64,000 bases of DNA from an uncultured bacterium (GCA_937889595.1 CALAOR010000078.1:1-64000); one strand, 5' to 3'; counted from the stretch's first letter, positions 13,194 to 53,547 are shown. A program made the numbers and translations. The notes: a model not told the origin generated them from the letters alone.

Positions 13194-13269
13194 TCCTTTA
13201 CTTGCGCCCGAAAAATGTGATAGACCTGATACAAAACCACACGCAACGCGGGCCTTTTAAGCCAAAGTC

Positions 13270-13464: not shown

Positions 13465-13502
13465 CTAAAAACCATCGTTGTGTGCCGAATAATATTCGGC
13501 CC

Positions 13503-13620
13503 CTAAAAACTCCCGCCCGGATTGAATATTTCAATCCTGCGCTGACCGGACAGATCTGCCCGCCAGTTCATATGCTCTTTAATATATTCATTGCCCTCTT
13601 TCAGCAGGTCAACTAACAGA
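13503..13620 (-). pseudogene. Remnant of an AlbA_2/divergent AAA-4 ATP-binding protein
   Basis: A minus-strand frame of about 37 codons encodes EYIKEHMNWRADLSGQRRIEIFNPGG and then a stop. In intact family members, RRIEIP begins one block and DRIEIFNPGG belongs to a block about 40-50 residues later. Here the two are fused at the shared RIEI, which looks like an internal deletion. The family identification is from memory and is moderate. Confidence 0.5.
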
Positions 13621-13628
13621 TAAAAGTA

Positions 13629-13663
13629 TCGACAACCAAATAGACAACCAAATCGACAACCTC
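13629..13663. repeat. Short direct repeat ACAACCAAAT
   Basis: Two and a half copies of a 13-14 bp unit (GACAACCAAAT with A/C variation) lie between the ATP-binding remnant and the stop of the fic gene. Confidence 0.6.
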
Positions 13664-14710: not shown

Positions 14711-14719
14711 TGCCCCCTC

Positions 14720-14877
14720 CTATTTTATTTCCTTCAGATACCCTTCAATCTTCTTTTCCTCCCTGAACACATACCTGGTCACGTTAAGCGACCATCCGTT
14801 TTTCTCTATCTCTGCCATATCCACAACCTAAAAATAGCCTTTCTTGCCCCTGAAGCCATCCTTTTCTTTGAAATCCA
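14720..14877 (-). pseudogene. C-terminal remnant of a type I methylase (HsdM)
   Basis: The minus strand encodes a 32-residue end fragment, MAEIEKNGWSLNVTRYV and onward, which matches the tail of HsdM proteins (compare DEIKENEFNLNIPRYV in the intact copy at 47489). Upstream in the same frame, after one TAG, FRGKKGYF and VVD continue the family pattern up to the stop codon of uvrB at 14878. The rest of hsdM is gone. ATG at 14816-14818 could allow translation of the fragment, but I consider it a relic. Confidence 0.65.
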
Positions 14878-16881
14878 CTAAAACTTATACTTTTTTTTCT
14901 TCATCTTCCTTGCCCCGACGGTTTTTATGTCCTCTATCTTATCCCTTAGCTTCGCAGCTTCCTCAAAGTTCAGCGCTTTGGCGTGCTTTACCATCTCGCC
15001 TTCCATCTGCCTTATCAGGTCTTCCGTGTTCTTGTATGTGAATTCCGCGTCTTCTTCCACCAGAGGAACCGTGAAATAATCCATCTCATACACGCTGTGC
15101 ATTATGTTCTTTATTTCCTTTTTTATAGACACGGGCGTTATGTTGTTTTTCTTATTGTACGCCGTCTGTTTTGCCCTCCTGCGGTCCGTCTCGCCTATTG
15201 CCTTTTTCATGGAGTCTGTTATTTTATCAGCGTACATTATTACCTTTCCTTCCACGTTCCTGGCGGCGCGGCCAACTGTCTGGATAAGGGCGGTGGCGGA
15301 GCGTAAAAAACCTTCTTTGTCCGCGTCAAGTATGGCGACTAACGACACTTCGGGAATATCCAGTCCTTCTCTCAGCAGGTTTATGCCTATGAGAGCCGTA
15401 AATTTTCCCTCGCGTAGCTCGCGGATTATCTGGATCCTTTCAAGGGTATCTATGTCGGAATGCAGGTACCTGCATTTTACATTTTTGTCCTTAAGGAACG
15501 ACGCCAGGCTTTCCGCCATTTTTTTAGTAAGCGTAGTCACCAGCACGCGCTCATTTTTTTCCGCGCGGATTTTTATTTCCGTCATTATATCATCCACCTG
15601 GTTTTTTGTCGGCCTGACTATTATTACAGGGTCCACCAGGCCTGTCGGCCTCACTATCTGCTCGGCTATATTATCCTTGCCGCTTAAGTCCGTTTCATAC
15701 ACGTTCGGCGTCGCGGATACGTAAACCGCCTGGTTCACCTTTTTCTCAAACTCGTCAAACTTAAGCGGCCTGTTATCATAGGCCGCAGGCAGCCTGAAGC
15801 CGTAGTCTATGAGGTTTTTCTTCCTGGAAAAATCGCCTGCCTGCATGCCGTGTATCTGAGGTATGGTAACATGCGACTCGTCTATGAACATTAGGTAATC
15901 TTCGGGAAAATAATCAAGCAGGGTAAAAGGGGCAGTCCCCGGCGCCCTTCCTTCTATTATCCTGGAATAGTTTTCTATTCCCTTGCAGTATCCCATTTCC
16001 TGCAGCATTTCTATATCATAACCCGTGCGGGCCTTTAACCTTTCATACTCGACCGGCCTGCCTTCAAGTTCCTTCAACCTCACATCAAGTTCCTTTTGTA
16101 TGTCTTTTACAACTCTTTGTATCGTGTTCTCGGGCATTACATACTGCGTAGCCGCGAATATGGCCGTGCTTTTCACTTTTGCAATGGAATTTTTGCTTAC
16201 CGGGTCTATCTCTGTTATTGCCTCCACCGTGTCCCCGAACAGTTCTATCCTTATAGCCGTTGTGTCGTATGCGGGGTATATCTCCACTATGTCGCCTTTA
16301 ATCCTGAATATCCCCTGGCTGAACTCGAATTCATTCCTTTTGTACTGCAGCAGCACCAGCTGTTCCGCGAGGGAATTTATGGATATTTTATCGCCTGTTT
16401 CCAGGTAAAGCCTCATGCTCTTGTATGTTTCCGGGGAACCCAGCCCGTATATGCACGACACGCTCGAAACGATAACCACGTCGCGTCTTGTCATGAGTTT
16501 GTGCGTCGCCGATAACCTTAAGCGCTCGAGTTCCGCGTTGATCGCGGAATCTTTTTCTATGAACAGGTCCCTGTGCGGTATGTACGCCTCAGGCTGGTAA
16601 TAATCATAGTAGGAAACAAAATACTCAACCGCGTTCTCGGGGAAAAATTCCTTGAACTCCATGTACAGCTGGGCAGCAAGCGTTTTATTATGGGATATTA
16701 TTATTGAGGGCCTGTTCACTTTTTCTATGACCTTGGCCATGGTAAATGTCTTGCCCGACCCGGTCACACCTAGGAGCGTCTGGTTTTTCTCCCCTTTAAG
16801 AACGGAATTTGCGAGCTTCTCTATGGCCTCCGGCTGGTCGCCGGCGGGCTGGTATTTGCTGTTGATTTTAAAGTTGTCCAT
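14878..16881 (-). CDS. uvrB: Excinuclease ABC subunit B (UvrB)
   Basis: Full-length 667-residue UvrB, the damage-verifying helicase-like subunit of nucleotide excision repair, which is loaded by UvrA and recruits UvrC. Walker A GVTGSGKT is at residues 38-45, the damage-probing beta-hairpin YYDYYQPEAYIP at 91-102, helicase motifs VYVSATP and QTVGRAARN further on, and the C-terminal UVR domain (LIRQMEGEMVKHAKALNFEEAAKLRDKI split by the UvrC contact) at about 620-655, ending in a lysine-rich tail. Its stop codon directly abuts the hsdM remnant, so the downstream end of the locus has been rearranged. Upstream lies a REP pair. Confidence 0.97.
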   Translation of the reverse strand: MDNFKINSKYQPAGDQPEAIEKLANSVLKGEKNQTLLGVTGSGKTFTMAKVIEKVNRPSIIISHNKTLAAQLYMEFKEFFPENAVEYFVSYYDYYQPEAYIPHRDLFIEKDSAINAELERLRLSATHKLMTRRDVVIVSSVSCIYGLGSPETYKSMRLYLETGDKISINSLAEQLVLLQYKRNEFEFSQGIFRIKGDIVEIYPAYDTTAIRIELFGDTVEAITEIDPVSKNSIAKVKSTAIFAATQYVMPENTIQRVVKDIQKELDVRLKELEGRPVEYERLKARTGYDIEMLQEMGYCKGIENYSRIIEGRAPGTAPFTLLDYFPEDYLMFIDESHVTIPQIHGMQAGDFSRKKNLIDYGFRLPAAYDNRPLKFDEFEKKVNQAVYVSATPNVYETDLSGKDNIAEQIVRPTGLVDPVIIVRPTKNQVDDIMTEIKIRAEKNERVLVTTLTKKMAESLASFLKDKNVKCRYLHSDIDTLERIQIIRELREGKFTALIGINLLREGLDIPEVSLVAILDADKEGFLRSATALIQTVGRAARNVEGKVIMYADKITDSMKKAIGETDRRRAKQTAYNKKNNITPVSIKKEIKNIMHSVYEMDYFTVPLVEEDAEFTYKNTEDLIRQMEGEMVKHAKALNFEEAAKLRDKIEDIKTVGARKMKKKKYKF

Positions 16882-38452: not shown

Positions 38453-39166
38453 TTATTGATTTATTATATATTTTTCCAACTTTTCCTTCCTTCTTTTCCA
38501 GTCCGGCGTGACTCTCGCCAGCAGTTCATAATACTTTTTATCATGGTTCCTGTTTAAAAAATGCAGCAGCTCGTGGTCTATGATATATTCGATGCACTCC
38601 CGCGGTGTCTTGATTAATTCCAGATTCAGGTTTATCCTGCCCTTTTTCGGGCTGCAACTCCCCCACCTTGAAGTCATTTTTTTTATATAAAACTCAGGAA
38701 GTTTGATTCTGTATTCTTGCAGCCTTCCAACCCTGCTGTTAAGTATTTCAGCGAACTTTTTTTCCGCCTGCCACTTATACCAATTATAAAGCATTTCTTT
38801 TCTATGTACTATATTCCCATTCCGGTTTGTAAACAGGTATATAAAGCCCCCTGATTTTCTTATCCGCTCATTAATGTTGTTTCTTACCCTCAGCCGGTAC
38901 TTCCTTCCCATATAACTGTGCGTTTCCCCGCTTACATATTCTTTCCTTATAACATGCTTTGCATTTTTCTCAAAATAATCCAGATGCTTTGCTATCCATT
39001 TGGCTTTTTTTGTGACTTTACCAATTACCCTGCCCCTGTCTGCTCCAGCAGGCATGTGAACTAAAACTGTCCTATCCGGATTAACTGTTATCGCAAGAGT
39101 TCTTCTGGCCCTTTTGATCAATGTTACTGGTATCCTTCTTTTCCCGTATTTTATAACCGCCTTCAT
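38453..39166 (-). CDS. YgjP/DUF45-like metallopeptidase of the restriction locus
   Basis: A 237-residue member of the M48-related YgjP (DUF45) family. Zinc ligands HELLH (198-202) and a third histidine at 208 (RNHDKKYYELL) are intact, and the MTSRWGSCSPKKGRINLN block at about 164-181 is the family signature. Its start overlaps the hsdR stop by four bases (ATGA), so it is cotranslated with hsdR. Genes of this family are regularly found at the end of type I restriction operons, where their role is not known. A decayed relative lies at 13270. Confidence 0.9.
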   Translation of the reverse strand: MKAVIKYGKRRIPVTLIKRARRTLAITVNPDRTVLVHMPAGADRGRVIGKVTKKAKWIAKHLDYFEKNAKHVIRKEYVSGETHSYMGRKYRLRVRNNINERIRKSGGFIYLFTNRNGNIVHRKEMLYNWYKWQAEKKFAEILNSRVGRLQEYRIKLPEFYIKKMTSRWGSCSPKKGRINLNLELIKTPRECIEYIIDHELLHFLNRNHDKKYYELLARVTPDWKRRKEKLEKYIINQ

Positions 39167-42100
39167 TTAGCGTATCTCCTGGCCGCGATCTTCATGACTC
39201 CATTGATAATGGCATCCACACTGTCATAATCCGCGCCTGCCTCGTCGATCAGATAATCCTCAATCTCATTTATCATCTTCTTTTTGGCGTCATCATTATA
39301 CTGCCAGTCCACGATAGCGTTTTTATTGACTATGTCATCTATTGCCAGCGCTGTTTTTGACAGGTCCGCCCCTCTTACCCCGGCTTTTGATATTTCTTCT
39401 TTTACCACCCTGTAGATCGCCGCCGCAGGCCCGTTTCCCTTTAACTCCTCAGGCAGTCCCTCGCTGTCCTTGTTAATAATACTCTCGGCAATATCCCTGA
39501 CCCTCTTGAGATACTCAGCATCGTTGATTCGTTCCAGCCTGAAGGCATCTATCGCCTCCTTAAGCAATTCTGAGAATTTTTTAAAGAACACCGGGTCTTC
39601 GTCGTATTTGTCATGTATTGTCCTCCTGGTATTGTATGCTATGGTATCGGCCTTGGCTGCCTTGCCCTCCACTTTTTCCACCGCGTTGTCAAACTTTGCC
39701 TTGTCAAATATATCCACCTGCCCGGTTATCTGCACCATATCGCCTGAAGTGACATAAGTGTCGAGTATCCGCTTTATTTTCGGCTCATATTCCGCCATGT
39801 CGAGGGCCTCGGAATACCTGTTCTTTGCCATGCGCCGCAGGTTCTGGAAAAATTTCAGATACCTTCTGTACTCTTCAGCCTGTTTATCATCAACTTCCTC
39901 ATAAAATATCCCGCTGGAAAGGGCTATGCCCATGCGGAGCGAAAATTTGGAAAGCTTGTCATAGAATTTATCCCTCAATTCCTCGTCCCCGAGCATTTTC
40001 AGGTATTCCTCGCTGTCCTGCTTGTTTTTAATGCCCGAGAACATGGCTTTAATGTTTGTATAATCCTCAGCAACCTGCCTGACCTCGTCTTTCATTCTTA
40101 ATAAGGTGCCTTTTAAGTCCTTTTCCTCAAAACCGTCAAGCGCTTTGTAAAATGTCATAGCCTTGTCCAGCTCGCCCAGTATGCCGGCGTAGTCTATGAT
40201 AAACCCGTATTCCTTGCCGTCACACACCCTGTTTACCCTGGCTATTGCCTGTAACAAAGTATGGTCATGAAGCTCTTTCGCAAGATATAGAACAGTATTT
40301 TTCGGCGCGTCAAACCCGGTTAAAAGTTTCGAGACAACGATTATAATTTCCGGTTCATCATCGTATTTGAACTTATTTACGATTTGTTCCTCGTATTTTT
40401 CCCCATCCCCGAAACGCTTCATCATTTTTGACCAAAAATTATTAACTTCATCAGCGGGTTTTTCATCCACTTCCTCGTACCCTTCCCTGTCATCAGGCGC
40501 TGATATAAGGACTTCGGAAGTAACCTTGGCGAAACTATCGAGATATTTTTTAAATTTTAAAGCATCGGCTTTTGACCCTGTGGCGAGCTGGGCCTTAAAT
40601 CCGGTGCCTTTCCAGTTTTTGGAATAATGCTCGCTTATGTCGTATGCAATTGCCTTGATATTGTCCTCAACCGACATCAGCCTTCTCTTGCCCGAGAATT
40701 CACGCTTTAATTCCGCCTTCTGGTCATATGACAGCCCCTCAGATTCCCTGACAAACCACTTGTCAGTCCCGTCCTGGTCCACTTTCAGGACATTCATCCG
40801 GCCTTCATATATAAGCCTTACAACCGCGCCATCGGCTGTGGCTTCCTCTATGGTATATGTCGGGTCAATGAATCCCCCAAATTTTTCTATGGTACTGCGT
40901 TTTTCGTCCTTCATGAGAGGCGTGCCAGTGAATCCTATATAACACGCGCCCGGCAGCATCCGCTCCATGGTGCCGCGGGCAGTGCCGTAATGGCTCCTGT
41001 GCCCTTCATCCGCAAGGACAAAGACATTTTCCGTGTTTATTTCCTTATTGCTCTGCCTGACAGCGGAGCGGAACTTAAAAAGCACGGTTGTCATAACTGT
41101 ATTGCGCTCGTCCTCGATAAGTTCCAGCAGGTCAGCGCCCGACCCGACTCTCTTTGCGTCTATTCCGCAATGCCTGAAAGTATCACGTATCTGCTTATCA
41201 AGGTTTATCCTGTCTGTAACGATAATGACGCGCGCGTTCGGGATTGAAGGCTCCATGGCAAGGGCTTTTGAAAGCATAACCATGGTCAGCGACTTACCGC
41301 TGCCCTGAGTGTGCCATATAACGCCGCCCCGCCGTTTTTTTCCTGTTTCATATTCTTTTACCCTGTTTATCGCGCTCTTTACAACAAAATACTGCTGATG
41401 CCTGGCTATTTTTTTTACACTTTTTTCTTCAAATACAATGAAATATCTTATTAAGTCTAAAAGTCTTTCCGGCCTGCAAAGCCTGTATATGGCGCGGTCC
41501 TGTTCAGTCACCATGCGGCCTTGCTTTTCCATGGAGTCAAAATAACGTGAAACATAATTATACCTGTCACTAAAAAGTTGCTCTTTTGTTTCTTCATCAA
41601 GCGGTTTATTTATCAATGCCTGAATATCCGCCTCATCCTTGCTTCTTTCTTTCCATTTTGACCAGAATTTTATTGCCGTGCCTGTTGTGCCATATCTGGC
41701 ATCGTTTACGCTAAGAACCATGAGAAGCTGGGAAAAGGTGTAAAGATAAGGTATCTCCTCCCTGTCCTGGTTCCGTATCTGCTGTGATATTGCCTGGCCA
41801 AGAGGCTCTTTCATATCAGGCCGCTTGCATTCGATAACGCATACCGGTATGCCGTTGATAAATAATATGATATCCGGCCTGCGTCGGTGCTTCCCGTCGG
41901 ATGTTTCCACGCTGTATTCCTCTGTGACGTGAAAGGCATTATTTGACATGTCCTGCCAGTCTATATATTTCAGGTCAAAACTCTTCTTGCCCGTAGACAA
42001 AGTTTCTTCAAAGCTCTTGCCGAGGGATAAAAGGTCGTATACTTTTTCATTTGTCCGGATAAGGCCATCATAAGGCATTTTTTTGAGCGTATTGATTGCC

Positions 42101-42339
42101 TCGCTGATGCTGGAGTTTGAGAACTGGTACTTCTGCCCGCCGGAGGTAAATGAGTTGCAAGGCATATTACGAAGCCGCTCGTCAAGCACGGTTTCCAGTA
42201 TCACATTTCCGGCCTTTCCGCCCCGCATTCTCAAAGCCTCATCAGGCGATATGTATTTATATCCGAGGTTTATGAGAAGCTGTAGCGCAGGTATCTGCGA
42301 TATGTGGTCTTCCTGAAACGAAGGCGTATCATTTGGCAT
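39163..42339 (-). CDS. hsdR: Type I restriction enzyme R subunit (HsdR)
   Basis: A 1058-residue motor and nuclease subunit, starting at ATG 42339 (MPNDTPSFQEDHIS) behind GGAGAAG. The PD-(D/E)xK nuclease is at RRPDIILFINGIPVCVIECK (D156, E170, K172). Helicase motifs follow: Walker A HTQGSGKS (343-350), DEGH (444-447), GFTGTPLM, LLTGFDAP and QAIARVNR. It translocates DNA in an ATP-dependent way and cuts when the HsdM/HsdS core meets an unmodified site. It overlaps the hsdS end upstream and ygjP downstream, and all motifs are intact, so the enzyme should be active. Confidence 0.95.
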   Translation of the reverse strand: MPNDTPSFQEDHISQIPALQLLINLGYKYISPDEALRMRGGKAGNVILETVLDERLRNMPCNSFTSGGQKYQFSNSSISEAINTLKKMPYDGLIRTNEKVYDLLSLGKSFEETLSTGKKSFDLKYIDWQDMSNNAFHVTEEYSVETSDGKHRRRPDIILFINGIPVCVIECKRPDMKEPLGQAISQQIRNQDREEIPYLYTFSQLLMVLSVNDARYGTTGTAIKFWSKWKERSKDEADIQALINKPLDEETKEQLFSDRYNYVSRYFDSMEKQGRMVTEQDRAIYRLCRPERLLDLIRYFIVFEEKSVKKIARHQQYFVVKSAINRVKEYETGKKRRGGVIWHTQGSGKSLTMVMLSKALAMEPSIPNARVIIVTDRINLDKQIRDTFRHCGIDAKRVGSGADLLELIEDERNTVMTTVLFKFRSAVRQSNKEINTENVFVLADEGHRSHYGTARGTMERMLPGACYIGFTGTPLMKDEKRSTIEKFGGFIDPTYTIEEATADGAVVRLIYEGRMNVLKVDQDGTDKWFVRESEGLSYDQKAELKREFSGKRRLMSVEDNIKAIAYDISEHYSKNWKGTGFKAQLATGSKADALKFKKYLDSFAKVTSEVLISAPDDREGYEEVDEKPADEVNNFWSKMMKRFGDGEKYEEQIVNKFKYDDEPEIIIVVSKLLTGFDAPKNTVLYLAKELHDHTLLQAIARVNRVCDGKEYGFIIDYAGILGELDKAMTFYKALDGFEEKDLKGTLLRMKDEVRQVAEDYTNIKAMFSGIKNKQDSEEYLKMLGDEELRDKFYDKLSKFSLRMGIALSSGIFYEEVDDKQAEEYRRYLKFFQNLRRMAKNRYSEALDMAEYEPKIKRILDTYVTSGDMVQITGQVDIFDKAKFDNAVEKVEGKAAKADTIAYNTRRTIHDKYDEDPVFFKKFSELLKEAIDAFRLERINDAEYLKRVRDIAESIINKDSEGLPEELKGNGPAAAIYRVVKEEISKAGVRGADLSKTALAIDDIVNKNAIVDWQYNDDAKKKMINEIEDYLIDEAGADYDSVDAIINGVMKIAARRYAK

Positions 42340-43525
42340 TTTTCTTCTCCTCATCTGCTTTAGCGCGGATCTTTCCAGTCAGAAGCTGCTGCATAAGACC
42401 TTTTTTCTGCAATTTTAGCAACATTACTCTCTGTTTTATCAATTCTATTTCTTTATCCATTGTGGATAGTAAAACACCTATTTCCTTTTGTTCCTGAAGA
42501 TTATGTAATTTAATATGGTAACTCATAAAACTCTCAAGATCAAAGTTTCTTCTCACAATACTGGCGCCCTGAACGGAAGAACTTATTAAAATTCGTTTCA
42601 TTTTATCCGTCTTTATAAAATAACTAAAATATTCTTTATCTGCCTTGTTTTCGTTGATTGAAAAAACTTTGTAAGCCGGAGATATTATCCCTGCATCGAC
42701 CAGATTTTGTTTATGGATTGATCCCATCCAAAAATTTAAGCCACTCATAGCTATTTCATCTTTCTTAACTATTAAATAACCACTGGTATTTTTATTTGCT
42801 ATTCGTTTATTGAAATAGTCGCTTTGAAGCATTATCTTTTCAGTTGTTACTGATAAAATTGGTAAAATATCCTTTCCATCGTGTTCTCTTTTAACCAAGG
42901 AAAGAACATCGGACATTAATACTTTAATACATCCTTTAATATTTGATTTTTCAAAAAAACTTTGCATCAACCCCTTTTTATACTTTTCCTTCAGCTGGGT
43001 AAGCTGCTCGGTTTTTTCAATGACAGAATCAAACGCCATAAGAATATCAGTAATATGGTCTTGCATTCTGATATCTATAGGCACTATTATATTAATCATT
43101 CCAAGATCATCTCTGTTAATTTTTGGTATCCCCGTCCTCATTGACGCTTCAATCGCTTGTTTTAAAAAGAATTCACTTAACATGATTTGAAATAAAAACT
43201 TCTTACTAACAATTTTTGTTTTTGGCAATATCGGATAAATATCTGCACTACAGAGACCCTTAAAATTTGGAGCACATACTTTGTTCAGATTTGGACGAAT
43301 TTTTGAATATACAATCATGTTCTCATCAAACAAGTAGTTTCCTGAAATAATCTGCTTTTCACCAACGGTTATTTTTTCAACAATTTTACCCGTACCAGAC
43401 TCTATGTTTTCCGAGCTGATTTGATACACACCTTGATATTTTGTTTCTTTGGGATCTACCTGCCCATTCACAATATCAGCAATCTCGTCAAATCTATAAA
43501 GCTTCCAGCTAACTGGAATTTTCAT
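42329..43525 (-). CDS. hsdS: Type I restriction specificity subunit (HsdS)
   Basis: A 398-residue specificity subunit from ATG 43525 (MKIPVSWKLYRFDEIADI), AGGAG ahead; the frame opens at a TTG nine bases earlier. It has two target recognition domains, each starting with a W-x-x-x-x-(F/L)-(D/G/S) type block and ending in a coiled dimer helix: first ending near LTQLKEKYKKGLMQSFF (about 190), second near ELIKQRVMLLKLQKKGLMQQLLTGKIR. The two repeated KKGLMQ ends are the conserved regions that contact HsdM. Lower GC than its neighbours suggests exchange by recombination, as is common for hsdS. Confidence 0.93.
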   Translation of the reverse strand: MKIPVSWKLYRFDEIADIVNGQVDPKETKYQGVYQISSENIESGTGKIVEKITVGEKQIISGNYLFDENMIVYSKIRPNLNKVCAPNFKGLCSADIYPILPKTKIVSKKFLFQIMLSEFFLKQAIEASMRTGIPKINRDDLGMINIIVPIDIRMQDHITDILMAFDSVIEKTEQLTQLKEKYKKGLMQSFFEKSNIKGCIKVLMSDVLSLVKREHDGKDILPILSVTTEKIMLQSDYFNKRIANKNTSGYLIVKKDEIAMSGLNFWMGSIHKQNLVDAGIISPAYKVFSINENKADKEYFSYFIKTDKMKRILISSSVQGASIVRRNFDLESFMSYHIKLHNLQEQKEIGVLLSTMDKEIELIKQRVMLLKLQKKGLMQQLLTGKIRAKADEEKKNAK

Positions 43526-43638: not shown

Positions 43639-44103
43639 TTATGCATTACCACCCAATTTAGAATCCCAAAATTTTTCAATTCCTTCTAAAATCTGTCTAA
43701 GTTCTAAAGTGTTTTTCCCATTAGTAACAATCAGCTTTTCCGGAACATGCGTTCCGTCTTTCCTGCCGGACTGATAAGGTTTTTCCTTGTTATAGTGTTT
43801 TGTCCCGTTGGCTATGTTTTCCAATGCTTCGCCATATGGTATTTCTTTGCGCACCTTCTTCTTTTCTTCCTTAGAGGGACAATGCCAGTCTATCACATGA
43901 TATAGTGTTATACATGCGTTCAAAGCCTTTCTCTCATTTGTTTCATCGTTATAAAACTCTTTTAAATTTTCTTTTACAATTTTGTGATAGAAATATCGCG
44001 GGTCTTGATATATGAAAGAAGATCCTTTCCTAATTACGGTCATATTTATCACCGGTTCTATTTCCAAACCCATTTCAGGAAACCTGATTATTCTTTTTTC
44101 CAT
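43639..44103 (-). CDS. Helical protein of unknown function in the restriction operon
   Basis: A 154-residue protein, GGAGG before its ATG. The segment ALNACITLYHVIDWHC (about 75-90) and then YGEALENIANGTKHYN (about 107-122) match, from memory, a family of small helical proteins with ALN-(A/S)-x-x-(T/L)-x-(Y/W)-H-x-x-(D/E)-W and (D/E)-(I/L)-AN-(G/A)-x-KH signatures. These look HEPN-like, but the usual RxxxxH nuclease motif is not visible. It lies between the PrrC/RloC-like gene and hsdS, in the same strand and spacing as the other operon members, so it is likely part of the system. Confidence 0.5.
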   Translation of the reverse strand: MEKRIIRFPEMGLEIEPVINMTVIRKGSSFIYQDPRYFYHKIVKENLKEFYNDETNERKALNACITLYHVIDWHCPSKEEKKKVRKEIPYGEALENIANGTKHYNKEKPYQSGRKDGTHVPEKLIVTNGKNTLELRQILEGIEKFWDSKLGGNA

Positions 44104-44247: not shown

Positions 44248-46401
44248 TCACCCTCCTCTTTCAGTGTTCACAAACCTGTCTGCATCAACAATATAGTTTT
44301 CGGGAACTATATTGAAACGCCGCACATCAAGCGAATAGATATAGTCGTTCTCAATATGAAATGTCTCATCTACATATTTCCGAAGCACGTCGTTGATTTT
44401 ACGCAGACGTTCTCTTGCTTCTTTATTCTGTTCAGTATAGGCGCGGAGTATAAGCATTTTGATATACCCCGATGTCTCATCACTGTATCTGCTCAACAGT
44501 TTCTGGGCGGAACATTCAGTAAGTGCTTTTAGATAGTCAAAATTTTGAATAAAACTCTTAATATATGCATTACCCTCGTCAATTTGCTCAGCGGTTAGCT
44601 TATTTTTACCATCCGCATCAGAAGTGGGTTCTGTGCGACCGTGTATCAGGCTTGATAGAATGTTATAAGCATTCGACTCAATCTGTGGATTCTTAAACTG
44701 ATGCTCAATGAACTTTCGCAGACAACCAATTCTTGCTGCTATGTCAATTATTGCATCCATAGCCAGTTCCTTGAAGAGGACTACGGATGACATTAAATCG
44801 TCACCTCTTTGGATTGGCGTACATCGAATTTGCCCATTAATGTTTTCAAAATACGTAGCGCAGACCGACGTATGGGTCTGTCTACCGGAATTCGTCTGTA
44901 TATAGTCAATGATAGGCTCAAAGTCATGAGTCAGCATTAAGACCGGTCGCTGATACAGACTCTTCTCTTTATCACCAACTTTAAATAGACGATTGATAAT
45001 AGCGTACTTCTTGTTGCTGTCAAACGACGATATTGGATCGTCGAGAATTATAAATTTGGCATCGCTTCTTATCGCATCAAACATAAAGAGTATTAAGGCG
45101 AAAGAGTGCTTCTCGCCCCAGCTCAAATGATTGCCCTGTGACTGCACATCGCCGGGGTTGCCGTCTGGTAAAATAAACTTAAGCAATGCCCGCGCACTGT
45201 TCTCACCAATCACCTCAACATCGAATGTGTACTTGAATCCAGCAAGGCTCAAAAAATCGTTAATATCTTGCTTTATGACCTTGATTTGGTCCTGAATATG
45301 CTTATTATACTTTCCAATCTCGCCCTTGAGAGTACCGACCTTCTCTAACAAACTATCAATTTCATCATTTATTATTTTCATTTCGTTTTTCGTTAAGTCT
45401 GCCGTAAAATAGGAATCGCAAGCTTGAAGGTCTACCTTCATATCTGCCAAATTCGATTCCAAATCCGCGATATTGTCCCTGTCAACAGACGAACCGTTAA
45501 ATGATACTATTGCCGTCAACCGGTCATGTAGATAGCGAGCCTCTGCACCCAGTTTTGCAAGCTGGGTTTCAAGAACGGCTGTTTTTTCTTTTGCACCAAA
45601 CAACGCGAGAAGTTCTCTTGCCTTGTCCATATTCAGGTATGCGGACAGTGCATCCAAGGCTTTTGAGATTGCATCGGCATACTCAACGCTTGCCTTGTCG
45701 AAACTATCGACAAAAACTTTGTTTATCGTAGTTGTCTTTTCAGTGTCTCCAGTAGAACAATAAGGGCAACGACCTTTTGCTCCGAAATCGGCATAGCCTT
45801 GCAGACGCCAGGCCGCCCATTTGGACACGGTGGCTGCTTCAAAAAACGGGCGTAGTTCATTAAGTTCTGTAGGTGGATTAAAATATGCCCCTTTCCCATT
45901 GAGAACACCCTTTATACCTCCCTTGCGTTTTGCCAGTTTATTTGCGCCAGTAAATTCAATGTTGTTAATGAGTACGCCGATTTGTTGTTGCAAGGCAATT
46001 ACCTCTTTACGACCAGTAATCGTTGTTTTTATTTTTGCTAAAGCATCATCAATGTTCTTCTTTGCCTCGTCATATTCTTTTGAACGGATAAGAACCTCGA
46101 AAGTGTCCTTTATCAGGGTATCTGTTTGGTAAACATATCGGTTGACGTAATTGTCATCAAAAATGAAAATACCGCCAGAGTTTACCCCTTCAATGGATGG
46201 CTGAGCATCCGTATTTACGCTACCGTAGGGGGCAAGTTCTGTCAGCGATTTCCCCTGAGATGCAAGGTCAATAGCTCGCGCAATCGTAGATTTGCCCGTA
46301 CCGTTCCTACCGAACAAAATATTCAATTTATCATCACAAAAGCTTAACTCGCCGTTCGTAATGTTGTTGCAGTTTCGAATTTTGATTGTCGTTGTAGCCA
46401 T
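44248..46401 (-). CDS. PrrC/RloC-like AAA ATPase (predicted anticodon nuclease)
   Basis: A 717-residue protein starting at 46401 (MATTTIKIRNCNNITNGELSF), chosen for the GGAGGG eight bases ahead. ABC-type ATPase: Walker A GRNGTGKST (31-39), a CPYC pair (C212, C215) that could form a zinc hook, a helical middle (240-390), signature LSWGEKHS (426-433), Walker B FIILDDPISSFD (450-461) and H-loop LTHDF (490-494). The C-terminal part has LRKFIEHQF followed by LIHGR, giving R562, E566 and H587, like the R-x3-E...H site of the PrrC and RloC anticodon nucleases. Known PrrC genes sit inside type I hsd operons, as this one does, so a tRNA-cleaving, phage-triggered role is likely. Other AAA_13 proteins share part of this build. 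Confidence 0.7.
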   Translation of the reverse strand: MATTTIKIRNCNNITNGELSFCDDKLNILFGRNGTGKSTIARAIDLASQGKSLTELAPYGSVNTDAQPSIEGVNSGGIFIFDDNYVNRYVYQTDTLIKDTFEVLIRSKEYDEAKKNIDDALAKIKTTITGRKEVIALQQQIGVLINNIEFTGANKLAKRKGGIKGVLNGKGAYFNPPTELNELRPFFEAATVSKWAAWRLQGYADFGAKGRCPYCSTGDTEKTTTINKVFVDSFDKASVEYADAISKALDALSAYLNMDKARELLALFGAKEKTAVLETQLAKLGAEARYLHDRLTAIVSFNGSSVDRDNIADLESNLADMKVDLQACDSYFTADLTKNEMKIINDEIDSLLEKVGTLKGEIGKYNKHIQDQIKVIKQDINDFLSLAGFKYTFDVEVIGENSARALLKFILPDGNPGDVQSQGNHLSWGEKHSFALILFMFDAIRSDAKFIILDDPISSFDSNKKYAIINRLFKVGDKEKSLYQRPVLMLTHDFEPIIDYIQTNSGRQTHTSVCATYFENINGQIRCTPIQRGDDLMSSVVLFKELAMDAIIDIAARIGCLRKFIEHQFKNPQIESNAYNILSSLIHGRTEPTSDADGKNKLTAEQIDEGNAYIKSFIQNFDYLKALTECSAQKLLSRYSDETSGYIKMLILRAYTEQNKEARERLRKINDVLRKYVDETFHIENDYIYSLDVRRFNIVPENYIVDADRFVNTERGG

Positions 46402-46402
46402 C

Positions 46403-46471
46403 TTATATACCCTCCCCATATTTATTCTTAAAACCACGCACCCGTAGTGTCGAAATTTCTTCCATACTCAT
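46403..46471 (-). CDS. 22-residue ORF coupled to the PrrC/RloC-like gene
   Basis: ATG at 46471, eight bases after AGGAGG, encodes 22 residues beginning MSMEEISTLRVRGFK. Its TAA is separated by one base from the ATG at 46401 (TAAGATG). The ribosome site is as strong as any in the operon, and the ribosome site of the ATPase gene (GGAGGG) lies inside this ORF. Hence the toxin-like ATPase is probably translated by coupling to this small ORF. It may also be a small partner peptide. Confidence 0.45.
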   Translation of the reverse strand: MSMEEISTLRVRGFKNKYGEGI

Positions 46472-46521
46472 TTATACCGCCTCCTTTTACGTTTTTAGCT
46501 AAAGGTCGTTGAATAATATTG

Positions 46522-47355
46522 TTATCTTTTCAGTTTTCTATTCCAATCGTAGCTAAATGTGGTGTCAAAAATTTCTACTAATTCAGGAAACTTTTTTGCC
46601 ATATGTATTAGTATAGTTGATATTAAAGTTCCTCTCAATATTTGATCTTTATCATACCACTTATGAAAAATACCAATTATTTTAGATTTTTCTACATGCC
46701 AATCATCAAGTCGATTTTTTGACATATTAGTGTCCCAGATAGGACACCCGCTATTGCCTGCAAAATCCCACTCCAAAATTGGTTGATCATCAACTGTCAT
46801 ATTTTCGCCAGTGGAAAAATCCGGACAAAATAATTCAATGCTGTAATTTTTGGTCCAAATAGGTTTCTTGTCTGGTGTAATAGTGCCATACGGCTGAAAG
46901 CTTACGTTTGACCTCTTGTTTACATGGTCCAGTTTCTGAGTCGAACAGGAAAAACCAGTCAGCAGAAGAAACTCTTTCTCTTTCTTTCTGAACGCGGGGT
47001 CAAAAGTTGTCAAATCTAAAAATATTTTATTTGAAACATTTCCAAGTAGGTCATTGTCAAATTCAAAAAATGCAATATCTTCAGTATCGCTTGACTTATA
47101 CACTTTCCCGGGAACTAAATATCCTTTATTTATATTGACCCATGCCTTGCCATTACTCACCACATCTTCTATAACATGCTTTGCGGTAGCACAAAATCGT
47201 CTGTCACTAATTTTGTACAAAAAACCCGTACCAAAAAAAATTTTTCCAGAATAAAATCCCACCGTACATTTCAGTGCTTTTTGGCTCATTTCACTCTGTA
47301 TTTTTTTTGCATATTCTTGTTTTCCGATATCCGTTAATTTTTCTTCTTGAACCAT
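46522..47355 (-). CDS. Trypsin-like serine protease in the restriction operon
   Basis: A 277-residue protein with the chymotrypsin/trypsin-fold catalytic set: histidine H60 in FCATAKHVI (the TAAHC position), aspartate D93 in TEDIAFFEF, and serine S202 in FAGNSGCPIW (the GNSGGP position, here with Cys instead of the second Gly). There is no signal peptide or membrane segment, so it should act in the cytoplasm, unlike most family members. AAGGAG precedes the ATG. It lies between hsdM and the PrrC/RloC-like ATPase with gaps of 120-133 bp. A cytoplasmic trypsin-like protease in a defence operon suggests it cleaves a partner or host protein on a trigger. The substrate is unknown. Confidence 0.75.
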   Translation of the reverse strand: MVQEEKLTDIGKQEYAKKIQSEMSQKALKCTVGFYSGKIFFGTGFLYKISDRRFCATAKHVIEDVVSNGKAWVNINKGYLVPGKVYKSSDTEDIAFFEFDNDLLGNVSNKIFLDLTTFDPAFRKKEKEFLLLTGFSCSTQKLDHVNKRSNVSFQPYGTITPDKKPIWTKNYSIELFCPDFSTGENMTVDDQPILEWDFAGNSGCPIWDTNMSKNRLDDWHVEKSKIIGIFHKWYDKDQILRGTLISTILIHMAKKFPELVEIFDTTFSYDWNRKLKR

Positions 47356-47488
47356 CGATACTCCTTATCATTTTGTTTATCCTTTGAATTTCATAAATAA
47401 TTACAAGTAAAAATTACCACACCCTAACACCTTCTAAACTGTCGTATTTCTATCAGGATGTGTACCCGTCTTCGCATTTCCTTTCTTA

Positions 47489-48988
47489 TCAGACACCCAG
47501 TTCCTTTATCATTTTTTTTATTTTTATCCGAACTTCAGCAAGATCTTCTTCCACTTTCGTAATTTCTTTCTCTGTTTTTTTTAAATCAATCTCTTTCTCT
47601 CGTTCAAACGAATCAACATACCTCGGTATATTCAAATTAAACTCATTCTCCTTAATCTCATCAAAAGAAGCTAAATAAGCATACTTGTCTATGGTTTCAT
47701 ATCCCTTATATGCTTTAACAATCTTTTCAACGTGCTCATCCAGAAGCGTATTTTTAGTCTTATCCTTTTCAAACTCCCTGCTCGCATCTATGAAAAGCAC
47801 ATCTTTTTTCTTTCTCCCTTTCTTAAAAGCAAGCACTGTCACAGGGATTCCCACGCCATAAAACAGATTCGCAGGCAGGCCAATAACAACATCCAGCAGA
47901 TTGTCCTCTATAAGGCTCTGCCGTATCTTACCTTCGTTTCCACCACGGAAAAGTACTCCATGCGGCACGACCACACCCACCCTGCCGGTGTCATCCAGCA
48001 TAGACGCTATCATATGGAGTATAAAAGCATAGTCACCCTTGCTTTTTGGCGGTACGCCGCGGTCAAACCTGTGGTATTTATCGCTTGCGGCATTCTCTGC
48101 GCCCCATTTGTCGAGTGAAAAAGGAGGATTGGCAACAACTACATTAAATTTCATTAAGTCATCATCCTTGATGTGCAGGGGGTTATTGATGGTATCACCC
48201 CAGTATATCTTTGCGCCGTCTATCTCATGCAAGAACATGTTCATTTTACAAAGCGCCCAGGTGCTGCCATTGTTTTCCTGTCCATAAACCGAGTAATCAT
48301 TACTCCCTATTTCCTTGGCCATTTTTATAAGCAACGACCCTGAACCGCAGGCAGGATCATATAACCTCTCCCCTGCCTTGGGTTTTAAAAGCTTAGATAA
48401 AAGGACAGAAACTTCGGGAGGTGTATAAAACTCCCCCCCTTTTTTTCCGGCATCGCTTGCAAATCGTTTTATCATATATTCATATGCGTCGCCTATTATG
48501 TCACTATGCCCAATACGTGAAGGTCTTAAATCAAGTGCTTCCTTTGCAAAATCTTCTATTATGTGTTTAAGCCTCCTATTTCTATCTTTTACCTGTCCCA
48601 AATTGGCTTCAGAATTAAAATCAATATTCCGAAAAACTCCATCAAGTTTAGCTTTATTACGTTCTTCTATTTCTTCAAGCGCCTTATTTATAATCTCACC
48701 AATATTGTTTTGATCGCGTTTTTCATATATATGATCATACGTACAATGTTCCGGTAGATAAAATCTTTCCCTCTCCAGTTTCCGTTTTATTCTCTCTTTA
48801 TCTCCTTTAAACTGTTTCTCATACTCTATCTTCGCATCTTTCCAAACATCACTTAAATATTTCAGGAAGAGAAACACGAGTATATAATCTTTATACTGTG
48901 CGGGATCAATAGTCCCTCTGAAAGTATCGCAAGCCGCCCATAACGCCTTCTCTATTTCAGCCTTAAGTTTGTCATCTTTTTCAGTCAT
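47489..48988 (-). CDS. hsdM: Type I DNA methyltransferase subunit (HsdM)
   Basis: A 499-residue N6-adenine methyltransferase. N-terminal HsdM domain (about 10-150), SAM-binding DPACGSG at 211-217, catalytic NPPF at 287-290, GEFYTPPEV at ~185-193, and a C-terminal tail with SFDEIKENEFNLNIPRYV, ending in a coiled segment that contacts HsdS. It methylates the recognised site with HsdS. GGAG lies ahead of the ATG. It is placed upstream of the protease and ATPase genes, so hsdM and hsdS are separated by ~4 kb of extra genes. Confidence 0.95.
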   Translation of the reverse strand: MTEKDDKLKAEIEKALWAACDTFRGTIDPAQYKDYILVFLFLKYLSDVWKDAKIEYEKQFKGDKERIKRKLERERFYLPEHCTYDHIYEKRDQNNIGEIINKALEEIEERNKAKLDGVFRNIDFNSEANLGQVKDRNRRLKHIIEDFAKEALDLRPSRIGHSDIIGDAYEYMIKRFASDAGKKGGEFYTPPEVSVLLSKLLKPKAGERLYDPACGSGSLLIKMAKEIGSNDYSVYGQENNGSTWALCKMNMFLHEIDGAKIYWGDTINNPLHIKDDDLMKFNVVVANPPFSLDKWGAENAASDKYHRFDRGVPPKSKGDYAFILHMIASMLDDTGRVGVVVPHGVLFRGGNEGKIRQSLIEDNLLDVVIGLPANLFYGVGIPVTVLAFKKGRKKKDVLFIDASREFEKDKTKNTLLDEHVEKIVKAYKGYETIDKYAYLASFDEIKENEFNLNIPRYVDSFEREKEIDLKKTEKEITKVEEDLAEVRIKIKKMIKELGV

Positions 48989-49000
48989 TTGTTTTCTCCT

Positions 49001-49963
49001 TTAAAAAAGTGTTTGTTGGTTTTTTTCAGAAATTTTCAACGGTCTTTTTTTATAAAAATTATCCTTTACTCTTGCATAATCTCCGTAATCATCTTTCAAT
49101 TCCTCAATCGTATTATTTGGGAAAAATGAAATATCATATCGACCAAAATAATTGTATCTTGATTTCTTTTTCCATGGTTGATTTATAATTCTGTCAACTA
49201 AAGGTACGATTTTTGTTGCAATTTTTATTTTGTCATTATCATCTTTGGGACTTTCCGCTTCAAACACCTCTTTTATACTGCCTGTTATCAGATCAATTAG
49301 TTGGATTAAATTTGAGTATTTATTATTCGAAGTTTTATGATCCGAATCTAAAAATTCTATTTTATCAGCGGAGGTTACAATATTCAATTCTTGTTTTGGT
49401 ATTTTACTAAGACAATGCCATGAAAAATATTCATGCCCTTCTAAGGCTGAGCTATTATCGTGATAAATTGAAGTAATATCGACTTTTGTTTCTTTTCCAA
49501 AAAACTTTTTTACGCAATATAAAAGCGCCGCCCTAAAAAACCTGTTATAAATTCTGCTTTCCCTATTTTTCCCGTTCCCAAATTCTGATAAATTTAATTT
49601 TGTTCTATCAATACCCAAAACATAAAATCTGATTTTATTGTTTCCAGACAATAAGTAATTCATCCATCTTTCTGATATATAATACAAATCTTTTCTATCA
49701 TTCAGTTTTGTAAAGTGAACTTCTTTATTATTCCCATCGTGAAAATCACATTTTTCCTTGCAATTTATCCAGTCTTTTACTTTTTTAGGATCTTTGCTAC
49801 CACACCTGTTATTCAGTAAATCATTAAGTAATCCCTCTTCATCAGACTCTGGAACAACAAGCAGTCCAATATATAACCAGTTTTTCGTCCCGCTTTCGTC
49901 GCAGAAAAGTTTAACCTTAAGAATATCACTTTGTTGTTCGCCGAATAAATTAGAATGGTACAT
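49001..49963 (-). CDS. DUF3800 protein
   Basis: A 320-residue protein starting at ATG 49963 (MYHSNLFGEQQSDI, AAGAGG ahead); a longer frame from 50035 would run into rmuC further. The DUF3800 mark is FCDESG (D22) followed by YIGLLVV, and later ID-R-T-K-L (YVLGIDRTKL), IYHDNSSA and LIQLIDLITGSI, which supply the aspartates of its predicted RNase H-like fold. These proteins are common in defence islands, and their activity is unproven. It overlaps the rmuC end by 14 bases and sits 12 bp upstream of hsdM. Confidence 0.85.
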   Translation of the reverse strand: MYHSNLFGEQQSDILKVKLFCDESGTKNWLYIGLLVVPESDEEGLLNDLLNNRCGSKDPKKVKDWINCKEKCDFHDGNNKEVHFTKLNDRKDLYYISERWMNYLLSGNNKIRFYVLGIDRTKLNLSEFGNGKNRESRIYNRFFRAALLYCVKKFFGKETKVDITSIYHDNSSALEGHEYFSWHCLSKIPKQELNIVTSADKIEFLDSDHKTSNNKYSNLIQLIDLITGSIKEVFEAESPKDDNDKIKIATKIVPLVDRIINQPWKKKSRYNYFGRYDISFFPNNTIEELKDDYGDYARVKDNFYKKRPLKISEKNQQTLF

Positions 49964-51215
49964 TTTTATCCTCTTCCGACTGCTCAATAGCATCTTGAAA
50001 TTCCTTGGGTATTTCCTTCGTTGTTTTTGCACCAAGTGCTTTTATTTTTTCCGTTCTGTTTATAAGATTTCCTGAACCGTCTTTTAGCTTTTTTATTGCA
50101 GAGTCGTAGGCATCCTGTGTGTTTTTTATTTTGTTTCCAATGCCTATTAAGTCCTCCAAAAAACCAACAAATTTGTCGTATAAAGCTCCAGCTTGTTTTG
50201 CTATTTCAACAACATTCTTATTTTGTTTTTCAAGTTGCCAAATATTATATATAATTCTCAGGGTGGCAATCAATAATGAGGGACTAAGAATAAGCACATT
50301 TTTGTCATAAGCATCCATTATTAGATCTGCATCAAAATGCATTGCTGTGGAAAATGCTCCTTCAATTGGCAAAAACATAATGACAAAATCCGGAGATGTT
50401 ATTCCTTCAATTTTTGTATATTCTTTAGAACTAAGACTTTTAATCCTTTCTCTTATTGCTGAAAGATAATTCTTAAGATGAGTATCTTGCGACGTCTTTT
50501 CCTCACACGAACAAAATGATTCATAATCTTTTAAAATTACTTTAGAATCTAAAACAATATGTTTGTCTCCTGGTAAATTAAAGATAACGTCCGGCCTTGG
50601 CCTGCTTCCATCCTCGCCTTTTTGTGCTTCCTGCTTTGTGTATTCTCTTCCTTCCTCTAAACCGGATTTTTGTAGAATAGTTTCAAGGATAAATTCCCCC
50701 CATTTGCCGCGGGTTGTTACATGCCCCTTAAGTGCATTGGTGAGATCATTTGTCTCTTTGCTCATTTGTTTATTCAGATCGTGTAACTGTTCTATTTGTC
50801 CTTTTAAAGTTGCACGTTCCTTTCCTTCAGTCTCAACTCTTTGTTGAAATTGCGAAATGGATTCTTTTAATGGTTTTAATATATCGTCAATTTTTTTTCC
50901 ACTTGCATCGGTTATATCTTTACCTGCTTCTCTAAGCACTGAATCTGCTGCTGTTTTGAATTCTTCTTTAAGTTTTTTTAATTCCTGAATTTGAGCTTCA
51001 ACAGCTTTAATTTGCATATCTTTAGTTGCTGCCTGGCTCACTACATCCGTATATTTATTTCTGACAGTTTCTAGCTCACCTTTCAACTCAATTATATTTT
51101 TTTCAAGTAACACTTCTTTTTCCTTGTTAAATATTGGTTTTTGAAGGAATTTCGTCATTAGAAAACCAATAACAAAACCAACCACCAATCCAATAATAAG
51201 CATTATAATTTGCAT
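49950..51215 (-). CDS. rmuC: DNA recombination protein RmuC
   Basis: A 421-residue RmuC protein from ATG 51215 (MQIIMLIIGLVVGFVIGFLMTKF), AGGAGG ahead. It has an N-terminal transmembrane anchor, a coiled coil (about 30-150), and a nuclease-like core with TRGKWGEFILETILQKSGLEEGREY, RPDVIFNLPGDKHIVLDSKV (the D-x-K of a PD-(D/E)xK fold) and FMLPIEGAF-like VIMFLPIEGAFSTAM. RmuC limits inversions at short inverted repeats and is regularly found near restriction genes. It probably shares a transcript with the DUF3800 gene and hsdM. Confidence 0.92.
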   Translation of the reverse strand: MQIIMLIIGLVVGFVIGFLMTKFLQKPIFNKEKEVLLEKNIIELKGELETVRNKYTDVVSQAATKDMQIKAVEAQIQELKKLKEEFKTAADSVLREAGKDITDASGKKIDDILKPLKESISQFQQRVETEGKERATLKGQIEQLHDLNKQMSKETNDLTNALKGHVTTRGKWGEFILETILQKSGLEEGREYTKQEAQKGEDGSRPRPDVIFNLPGDKHIVLDSKVILKDYESFCSCEEKTSQDTHLKNYLSAIRERIKSLSSKEYTKIEGITSPDFVIMFLPIEGAFSTAMHFDADLIMDAYDKNVLILSPSLLIATLRIIYNIWQLEKQNKNVVEIAKQAGALYDKFVGFLEDLIGIGNKIKNTQDAYDSAIKKLKDGSGNLINRTEKIKALGAKTTKEIPKEFQDAIEQSEEDKNVPF

Positions 51216-51597
51216 ATTTGCCTCCTTTTTTAATCTCATTAAACAAGTACTTTGGCGGGGCGAGGGGGCTTTAGGCCCCCTCTGCGCTATATCTCCTACT
51301 AAACGGCCGTATTATTGAAATTGGGTACATCCTTATGCCGGAGCCATAACCCCATTAGCGCGACTCCCGCCATAAGCATTACTGCCTTTATCATTATTAT
51401 CACCACCATTCCTACATTTACTTCTATCTTTACAACCATGGTGGCTATGATCTCCAGCGTAAACCTTAATCCCAATCCAATAACAACGCCTGGATAAGAG
51501 CAAAACTACTAAAATCCTATGTATCTTTATCCGTCATTTCATATGCAAGCCAATAATCTTTCCATTTTTTTGCGGGTGGTGTTTTTGGAGGGTATGC
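51216..51597. other. Gap between rmuC and the half-HsdS gene
   Basis: It contains a GAGGGGGC-TTTAG-GCCCCCTC hairpin (51262-51282) without a T-run, and a weak candidate small ORF (51299-51439). Another minus frame encodes a G/N/S-rich stretch (NGGDNNDKGSNAYGGSRANG) without a start codon. Confidence 0.45.
51299..51439 (-). CDS. Possible 46-residue hydrophobic protein
   Basis: Minus-strand ATG at 51439 (GGAG about 12 bases ahead) encodes MVVKIEVNVGMVVIIMIKAV and onward to GLWLRHKDVPNFNNTAV. There is one or two hydrophobic helices and a polar tail. Neither the ribosome site nor any homology is convincing. It could be a relic of a larger gene, since the frame stays open upstream without a start. 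Confidence 0.2.
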   Translation of the reverse strand: MVVKIEVNVGMVVIIMIKAVMLMAGVALMGLWLRHKDVPNFNNTAV

Positions 51598-52188
51598 TCA
51601 TCCCCCAAAAATCCTTATTACCTTTTCCAAAGAATTCTTGTAATAAAGCTTTCTCAATTCAAATAATTCTTTTTCAAGCTTATCTTCCCTGCCGATCAGT
51701 TCCCCAAGTTCGGCCAGGGTTTTTTGTTTTTCAATTGGTGGGAGTTCAACTTCCAGTTCCTTTAGCGCGGCAGCGGATACAAACGGGATATGCGAGCCAG
51801 AACCGCACTGGTCAAAATAATCCATGGCCGGCTTCTGCCGCAGATAACAAGCAAGATAACTGGATAAAACCCTGCTTTTAAAATCATCCTTGATTCTTAT
51901 AATAAGATAGTGGTTTGAAACCGTTGTTCCTTCCAGTTTTCTGTCTATTACCCCGGCACTTCTTTTGCTCCCCTTTGCCGCGAATATCACATCCCCGGAA
52001 AATAGCTCCGGGTATTTGTCTTTGCTGCTTATATCTTCAGTCCTTAAATGGTCATAGTCTATGGTTCCATTGACATTCAGGTCACGAAGCTGTATAATTA
52101 ATATAGTAGTAAGTTCAGCAGGCTTCTTTGATTCTCGCTGTAAAAAGCCCGCTGTAATATCCGCTATTTCGCTTAGCTTTGCTTTCAT
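51598..52188 (-). CDS. Orphan half-size HsdS (single recognition domain)
   Basis: A 196-residue protein with one type I target recognition domain: N-terminal LSEIADITAGFLQR, then DLNVNGTIDYDHL, GDVIFAAKGSKRSAGVID, VSNHYLIIRI, SGSHIPFVSAAALKELEVELPP and a coiled tail (EKQKTLAELGELIGREDKLEKELFELRKLYYKNSLE in broken view). Full HsdS has two such halves. It is at the upstream edge of the island, not next to hsdM, and has GGAG ahead of its ATG. It may pair with itself to form an alternative specificity unit, or serve as a recognition-domain donor for the main hsdS. Confidence 0.8.
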   Translation of the reverse strand: MKAKLSEIADITAGFLQRESKKPAELTTILIIQLRDLNVNGTIDYDHLRTEDISSKDKYPELFSGDVIFAAKGSKRSAGVIDRKLEGTTVSNHYLIIRIKDDFKSRVLSSYLACYLRQKPAMDYFDQCGSGSHIPFVSAAALKELEVELPPIEKQKTLAELGELIGREDKLEKELFELRKLYYKNSLEKVIRIFGG

Positions 52189-52364: not shown

Positions 52365-52393
52365 TTGACACTTACTACTTCAAATGATATTAT
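52365..52393 (+). promoter_or_regulatory. Promoter of fic
   Basis: TTGACA (52365-52370), 17 bp, TATTAT (52388-52393), 20 bp ahead of the start at 52414. Confidence 0.75.
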
Positions 52394-52413
52394 ATATTCA
52401 ATTGGAGGATAAT

Positions 52414-53547
52414 ATGTATAATCCAGGCACTTTCAAGACAATTTTTCCAAATAAAGATACAGAGTATAAAAGCTTTTTACCCACTCATATAAACAATCAA
52501 TTTGAGTGGTCCGATAAGGAAATCACTATGCAGCTTGAAGAAGCCATGCGTTTTCTCGGAGAGTTAAACGCATATTCAAACCTGGTACCTGATGTCGATT
52601 TTTTTATTAAGATGCATGTATTAAAGGAAGCCACAACATCGAGTAGGATCGAAGGTACGAGGACCGATATTGATGATATTGTTAAACCACAATCCGAAGT
52701 AAACCCGGAAAAACGTGATGATTGGGCAGAAGTCCATAATTATATATCTGCGGTAAAACGTGCAATAGCAGAACTTGCCAATCTTCCGCTGTCAATCAGG
52801 CTACTAAAAGAAACCCACTCCCAGTTAATGTCAGGTGTGCGCGGAGAAAAAAAATATCCCGGTGAAGTAAGAAAAAGCCAGAACTGGATTGGTGGTTCAA
52901 GTCCCAGGGATGCGTTTTTTGTCCCGCCTCATTGGGATGATTTATCTGATTTACTTTCGGACCTTGAAATGTTCTGGCACAATAGAGGGCTTGGAATTCC
53001 AAATCTGATAAAAATAGCCATGAGTCACTATCAGTTTGAGACCATACACCCTTTTTGCGATGGGAATGGCAGATTGGGCCGGCTGCTAATAACACTGCAA
53101 CTCGTAGAGCTGGGCTTTCTACAAAAACCCGCGCTTTATCTGTCTGCGTTTTTTGAAAAACACAAGGGTTCCTATTACGATGCTCTCACCATGGTCAGGT
53201 CATCTGGAAATATGGAACAATGGATAAAATTCTTCCTCTCAGGAGTCATAGATACAGCAAAAAACGGAAAGGAAACATTGCAGGCAATTGTAACCTTAAG
53301 AAAAGAATACAATGAAAAAATCCTTGGCTTTGGGAAAAGGATTAAACTGGCTAACCGCCTGTTACTAAAGCTGTTTGGGGATCCGGCTGTCAGTATTGTT
53401 GGTGTTGCTGAGTACCTTGAGGTTGCATTTGCAACTGCCGCAAGGCTTGTTGATGAATTTCAAGCAGTAGGAATTTTAAAGGAATCTACAGGCCAATCAA
53501 AAAATAGAATATTTGTTCTGGATAGTTATTTGAGTTTATTCAAATAA
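52414..53547 (+). CDS. Fic family protein (predicted AMP transferase)
   Basis: A 377-residue protein from ATG 52414 ([12 protein letters not shown]), GGAGG six bases ahead; the earlier start at 52384 is not supported. Fic_N region about 1-90, an inhibitory motif TTSSRIEG (S76, E80, G81), and the complete active-site [12 protein letters not shown] with H212. A winged-helix domain lies at the C-terminus (about 310-377). It differs from the Fic protein at 13664 in length and N-terminus. It is the only plus-strand gene between 4.5 and 64 kb and lies between the defence island and hemB. Predicted to AMPylate a host protein when released from inhibition. Confidence 0.88.

Follow-up and report, generated by a model that had tools for sequence, protein, structure and literature searches.

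A 64,000-nucleotide (nt) stretch of DNA from an uncultured bacterium (GCA_937889595.1 CALAOR010000078.1:1-64000; hereafter the window) carries a type I restriction operon on its minus strand, with an ABC ATPase gene and a trypsin-like protease gene between hsdM and hsdS. The ATPase gene behaves as a one-gene cassette that changes partners, and this mobile gene is the most useful outcome of the analysis. According to the model that we consider fairly probable, the operon is a site that hosts accessory defence genes, the ATPase is a single-gene abortive-infection nuclease, and the protease is separate cargo.

Mobility of the ATPase Gene

Close relatives of the ATPase stand beside quite different defence systems. 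The relatives in loci L006, L012, L013 and L015, whose proteins are 84-89% identical to one another, are found 60 nt downstream of HamB in a HamA-HamB (Hachiman) pair, beside a type I HsdR at a gap of 458 nt, beside the helicase candidate PDC-S53, and 45 nt downstream of BrxL, which itself follows PglX and PglZ of a BREX system, respectively. In L014 and L016 the relative lies downstream of a type III Res gene, at gaps of 59 and 64 nt. More distant members adjoin a Schlafen AlbA_2 protein (L024) or, on a plasmid (L002), lie ahead of genes for a cytosine methyltransferase and a type II restriction enzyme. Between L006, L012, L013 and L015 the similarity of the DNA sets in no more than about 24 nt ahead of the start codon and stops at about the stop codon, except that in L013 it starts within the ATPase gene, at the end of the contig; comparison of the window with these loci gives much the same limits, with an onset no more than about 32 nt ahead of the start codon. 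Taking together all comparisons with the window or between loci whose partners differ in kind, the onset is no more than about 35 nt ahead of the start codon, and the similarity has ended by about the stop codon. Longer common flanks occur only among loci with the same type III system and between L014 and L127. Since hardly any of the similarity extends beyond the ATPase gene, this gene moves as a cassette on its own.

Across the family, an hsd-like gene of any kind is present in only about 10 of the 89 other ATPase loci, few of them with the two genes adjacent, and linkage to type I systems is therefore not a rule. Most of the ATPase gene is contained in 777 plasmid records, and in the seven plasmid regions that were fetched it occurs without the protease and without adjacent type I genes. 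A plasmid relative of 31% identity lies near vapBC, pifC and another AAA ATPase gene on an IncF plasmid (L005, 1975-8000); 885 plasmid records contain a match. IbfA, suggested by similar plasmid regions, was rejected as a candidate: it is a 518-residue ATPase-TOPRIM protein, and the other AAA ATPase gene of L005, also of 518 residues, is a separate gene located upstream. A Chlorobium locus (L062, 743-9094) has the order hsdS, ATPase, Fic, hsdR and ygjP, with hsdR and ygjP of the window's type and a distant member of the ATPase family.

PrrC is the textbook second line of defence tied to one restriction enzyme, and the earlier note on this DNA had accordingly proposed that the type I complex silences the ATPase. 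In such a classical guard, HsdMSR would hold the ATPase-nuclease inactive and phage inhibition of restriction would release it, the protease being incidental. The location inside hsdMSR resembles that of the fetched plasmid PrrC genes, all ten of which adjoin hsd genes, and the ATPase relatives in L012, L062 and L088 come after hsd genes. Most relatives, however, have no type I genes nearby, and a nuclease that depended on a single complex for its silencing would not be expected to stay functional beside systems as different as Hachiman, BREX, type I restriction and a helicase, for which an internally regulated effector fits better. A guard of this type is thus unlikely, and the case for silencing specifically by the type I complex is weakened. 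Since the close relatives adjoin quite different systems, the trigger of the ATPase is probably not one specific restriction complex.

In the model favoured here, the Rad50/SMC-like head of the ATPase would restrain the putative RNase domain at the C-terminus, which has a PrrC-type R/E/H site. Phage attack would lift this restraint, and the domain would then cut RNA, probably tRNA, so that translation stops. The trigger may be independent of the partner, for example DNA ends that arise through cutting by the neighbouring system or through the phage; all the partner systems act on DNA, and DNA ends or failed DNA restriction would therefore be a common signal. RloC, which is rarely found at restriction loci (PMC2610378), is reported to be activated by DNA breaks (PMC3874168), and the ATPase may similarly be a self-contained, RloC-like backup killer, with the protease responding to a separate trigger. 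A bolder and tentative proposal, possible although we would not expect it to hold, is that the whole clade consists of partner-independent one-gene backup killers. These would insert inside DNA-targeting defences that are otherwise unrelated (type I and type III restriction, BREX and Hachiman), or downstream of them, sense something that these defences have in common, for instance broken DNA of phage or host or inhibited DNA restriction, and then stop translation. If true, this would carry the PrrC/EcoprrI idea beyond a single guarded complex, to DNA-cutting systems of every kind. A PrrC-like gene with switching neighbours provides a set of loci that can be compared to learn whether such effectors guard one complex or a general signal.

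Gene Layout of the Operon

The operon contains hsdM, hsdS and hsdR, and hence a complete type I restriction-modification system, followed by ygjP, as judged from open reading frame (ORF) calls and from Pfam and NCBIfam matches. Its features, in the direction of transcription, are as follows.

47489-48988, minus strand: hsdM, type I DNA methyltransferase subunit (Pfam N6_Mtase, 2.5e-109, and HsdM_N, 6.5e-33; NCBIfam TIGR00497)
46522-47355, minus strand: trypsin-like serine protease, predicted to be cytoplasmic, cargo gene (triad H60/D93/S202)
46403-46471, minus strand: 22-codon ORF MSMEEISTLRVRGFKNKYGEGI with a strong ribosome site, immediately upstream of the ATPase (sequence and translation)
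44248-46401, minus strand: ABC (Rad50/SMC-type) ATPase of the PADLOC PDC-S06 family (PDLC04889, 614.6 bits, full length)
43639-44103, minus strand: 154-residue protein, third gene of the inserted block (ORF with a ribosome site)
42329-43525, minus strand: hsdS, type I specificity subunit (Pfam Methylase_S, 2.7e-19)
39163-42354, minus strand: hsdR, restriction and translocation subunit (HSDR_N, SWI2_SNF2, TIGR00348)
38453-39166, minus strand: YgjP-like metallopeptidase, last gene of the operon (Pfam YgjP-like, 7.1e-54)

Three extra genes thus separate hsdM from hsdS, encoding the 277-residue protease, the 717-residue ATPase and the 154-residue protein; the earlier note had correctly placed the first two but missed the third, which has no match in Pfam, NCBIfam, PADLOC or plasmids. 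The guanine-plus-cytosine (GC) contents of the three genes, in the same order, are 0.34, 0.42 and 0.36, as against 0.40 for hsdM and 0.46 for hsdR. A single transcript is plausible from the sequence, because the genes share a strand, each has a ribosome site of its own, and no minus-strand terminator-like site was found in the gaps of the operon. The gaps themselves are not short, as had been supposed, but measure 133, 120, 144 and 113 nt in order from hsdM to hsdS, with hsdS and hsdR overlapping. The 22-codon ORF is not obvious upstream of the ATPase in those relatives whose sequence was inspected.

A sister operon, from genome G003 of the same family, lacks the block: its hsdR is 79% identical to that of the window, its hsdM and hsdS are only 8 nt apart, and the protease, the ATPase and the 154-residue gene are all missing. 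Orthologues of hsdR in related genomes are 79-80% identical, and ygjP adjoins hsdR in L109-L112 as well as in L062. In the sister operon (L110, 10626-16243), two ORFs interrupt hsdS, one of them transposase-like (14393-15355) and the other of 1028 residues (11310-14396).

Motifs and C-Terminal Domain of the ATPase

The ATPase belongs to PDC-S06, an uncharacterised phage defence candidate of PADLOC whose profile labels candidate status only; the match (E = 6e-185, 614.6 bits) covers positions 2-689 of the 693 of the profile and residues 17-725 when counted from the GTG start of the ORF list. The start supported by those of relatives is ATG 46401, from which the residues R562, E566 and H587 are numbered; the GTG start shifts them to R574/E578/H599. 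Counted from the ATG, the residues and the CPYC pair (C212-P-Y-C215) noted earlier are confirmed. Among 88 aligned members, R562 and the CPxC motif are invariant (88/88), and E566 and H587 are conserved in 87/88 and 80/88 (91%), respectively. The ABC motifs are also conserved (Walker A, GRNGTGKST; signature, LSWGE; Walker B, FIILDDPISSFD; switch histidine, H492), Pfam places the protein in AAA_13, the family spans many phyla, and the prophage family phrog_2801 matches the protein with E = 2e-31. The AlphaFold2 (AF2) model has a mean predicted local distance difference test (pLDDT) score of 86 and a Rad50/SMC-like head, which in a Foldseek search with the whole model matches SMC, Rad50, RecN, RecF and Lamassu LmuB; the CPYC pair sits between two short helices (192-209 and 221-233).

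A PrrC/RloC-like nuclease function of the ATPase is likely, though unproven, from its sequence. E. coli PrrC, encoded on a plasmid between hsdS and hsdR and here represented, like all PrrC evidence in this work, by fetched database sequences only, has R320/E324/H356 with the same R-x3-E spacing as the ATPase, and these residues and their RloC counterparts constitute the nuclease site by published mutagenesis (PMC2610378). In the AF2 model, helices that follow a short beta segment make up most of the C-terminal domain from residue 539 on, and its pLDDT is mostly above 90; such a fold would be expected for a HEPN domain but is not proof of one. It is by inference that the ATPase would act like PrrC or RloC, and membership in PrrC is not claimed.

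Several observations weigh against the model. The likeness to PrrC put forward in the earlier note stands for the conserved triad but not for the profile: HHalign of the ATPase family with PrrC gave a probability of 35%, in an alignment running from Walker B to the C-terminal part, and the C-terminal domain alone gave 0.4%, which is not significant, so that the common triad could be convergent. Moreover, H587 is replaced by K in 8/88 members, and the Foldseek search with the whole ATPase model gave only ATPase heads among the matches listed. As to mobility, the sample of close loci is small, comprising about ten independent loci once L126 is counted as the same locus as L014 and L124 as the same as L016. 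Finally, the first part of hsdS differs between G003 and the window, and insertion in the latter as opposed to loss in the former is therefore not proved.

It is conceivable that the C-terminal domain is not a nuclease but a helical regulatory or nucleic-acid-binding domain in which R, E and H are structural or binding residues, consistent with the lack of a significant match of the domain to the PrrC profile and with further invariant residues outside the triad (R653, K675 and H682). This is rather improbable, however, because the R-x3-E spacing is the same as in PrrC and is conserved over 88 divergent sequences, and because the neighbours of the relatives are defence genes.

Protease and Its Pairing with the ATPase

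As had been stated earlier, the catalytic triad of the protease is intact and a signal peptide is lacking. H60, D93 and S202 occur in order within TAKH, EDIA and GNSGCP, the last of which contains GxSGxP, and there is no hydrophobic segment at the N-terminus. The ordered triad motif was obtained in none of 200,000 shuffles of the protease sequence and, apart from the gene itself, occurs once in 1.45 megabases of fetched sequence. Assignment to a family is less firm: Pfam Trypsin_2 scores 16.9 bits (E = 0.011), under its gathering cut-off of 27.6, phrog_36721 matches residues 42-267 with E = 9e-5, and the best PADLOC match is LmuA (E = 8e-4). The single-sequence AF2 model is of low confidence (pLDDT 38.6), which makes the Foldseek search with it weak, and nearly all of its top matches are HtrA/DegS, with a best E of about 0.003.

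The earlier note had suggested a joint system of protease and ATPase-nuclease: once a phage disables the restriction complex, the protease would act on the nuclease, on the inhibitor of the nuclease or on a protein of the host. It had regarded the pairing as accidental should the protease not be conserved next to the ATPase. The two genes are indeed adjacent, 120 nt apart, on a common strand and inside the hsd operon. However, the protease lies outside the boundaries of the ATPase cassette, and a protease relative (E ≤ 0.01) accompanies the ATPase in none of the 89 other ATPase loci. At the sensitivity used, nothing beyond noise was found in 145 genomes of the relatives set (144 besides that of the window), in 10 genomes carrying the ATPase, in 395 genomes of the phylum of the Chlorobium locus, in 72,556 plasmids, or in viral and genome contigs, the pattern scans of the contig collections using exact peptides, which reach close relatives only and which distant homologues of the protease could escape. 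The pairing is thus probably accidental, a single system of the two is very unlikely and not worth pursuing, and the protease is probably cargo in its own right, an effector that responds to a different trigger. No publication that describes this ATPase, or a protease gene within a type I operon, turned up in the literature available for searching, although this does not prove that none exists.

A Lamassu-like pair, with the protease as an LmuA-type effector and the ATPase as an LmuB-type SMC sensor, would agree with the LmuA match of the protease, with LmuB as the second best match of the ATPase (60.9 bits) and with Lamassu chains among the Foldseek matches of the ATPase model, but is most improbable, because PDC-S06 scores tenfold higher, the LmuB match does not extend beyond the ATPase core, no gene for LmuC was recognised that would complete the set of LmuB, LmuC and LmuA, and the ATPase is usually found without any such protease.

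A gene of similar layout to the protease, encoding 291 residues and trypsin-like, was found via phrog_36721 adjoining late phage genes in an element that, on reading of its sequences, looks like a P2-like prophage (L136, 7742-8617). The gene is a candidate for phage-borne defence cargo; pairwise similarity between its product and the window protease is not significant.

Flanking Genes

Directly upstream of hsdM, on the same strand and with low GC content, are genes for a DUF3800 protein and rmuC (49001-51239), possibly more cargo. Upstream of rmuC, a half-length hsdS-like ORF of 196 residues (51598-52188) is possibly the remnant of another specificity gene. A Fic-like ORF, judged from its sequence, is located near the operon on the plus strand (52384-53547); L062 also has a Fic gene, between the ATPase and hsdR.

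Comparison with Known Systems

The protease shares the order of the triad and GxSGxP with Trypsin_2, HtrA/DegS, the LmuA protease and phrog_36721, but differs from the trypsin-like families in scoring under the Pfam cut-off, in being predicted to be cytoplasmic without a signal peptide, and in that no PDZ domain was found in it.

Like PrrC of EcoprrI, the ATPase combines an ABC ATPase with a following R-x3-E...H set, and PrrC too can sit inside an hsd operon. The ATPase differs from PrrC in its length (717 versus 396 residues), its CPxC motif, the spacing from R to H (25 versus 36), its weak profile similarity, and the occurrence of its family outside type I loci. RloC is an ABC ATPase with a CXXC motif and an R-x3-E...H triad (PMC2610378), and by its published description resembles the ATPase in both features and in its rare linkage to restriction loci; unlike the long coiled-coil zinc hook of RloC, the CPYC pair of the ATPase is flanked by short helices in the model. 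Proteins of the APECO1_4465 type combine an ABC ATPase with a C-terminal HEPN domain and occur in prophages and mobile islands (PMC3710099). By this description they may resemble the ATPase in layout, its C-terminal domain being a candidate HEPN domain, and the ATPase itself matches a prophage family (phrog_2801); the APECO1_4465 gene was not found in the single APEC O1 stretch examined.

The recruitment of backup nucleases by BREX loci, OLD-type ABC ATPases among them, is already known (PMC12839542), and the principle is therefore not new. The observation made here is that one nearly constant gene joins several kinds of defence system.

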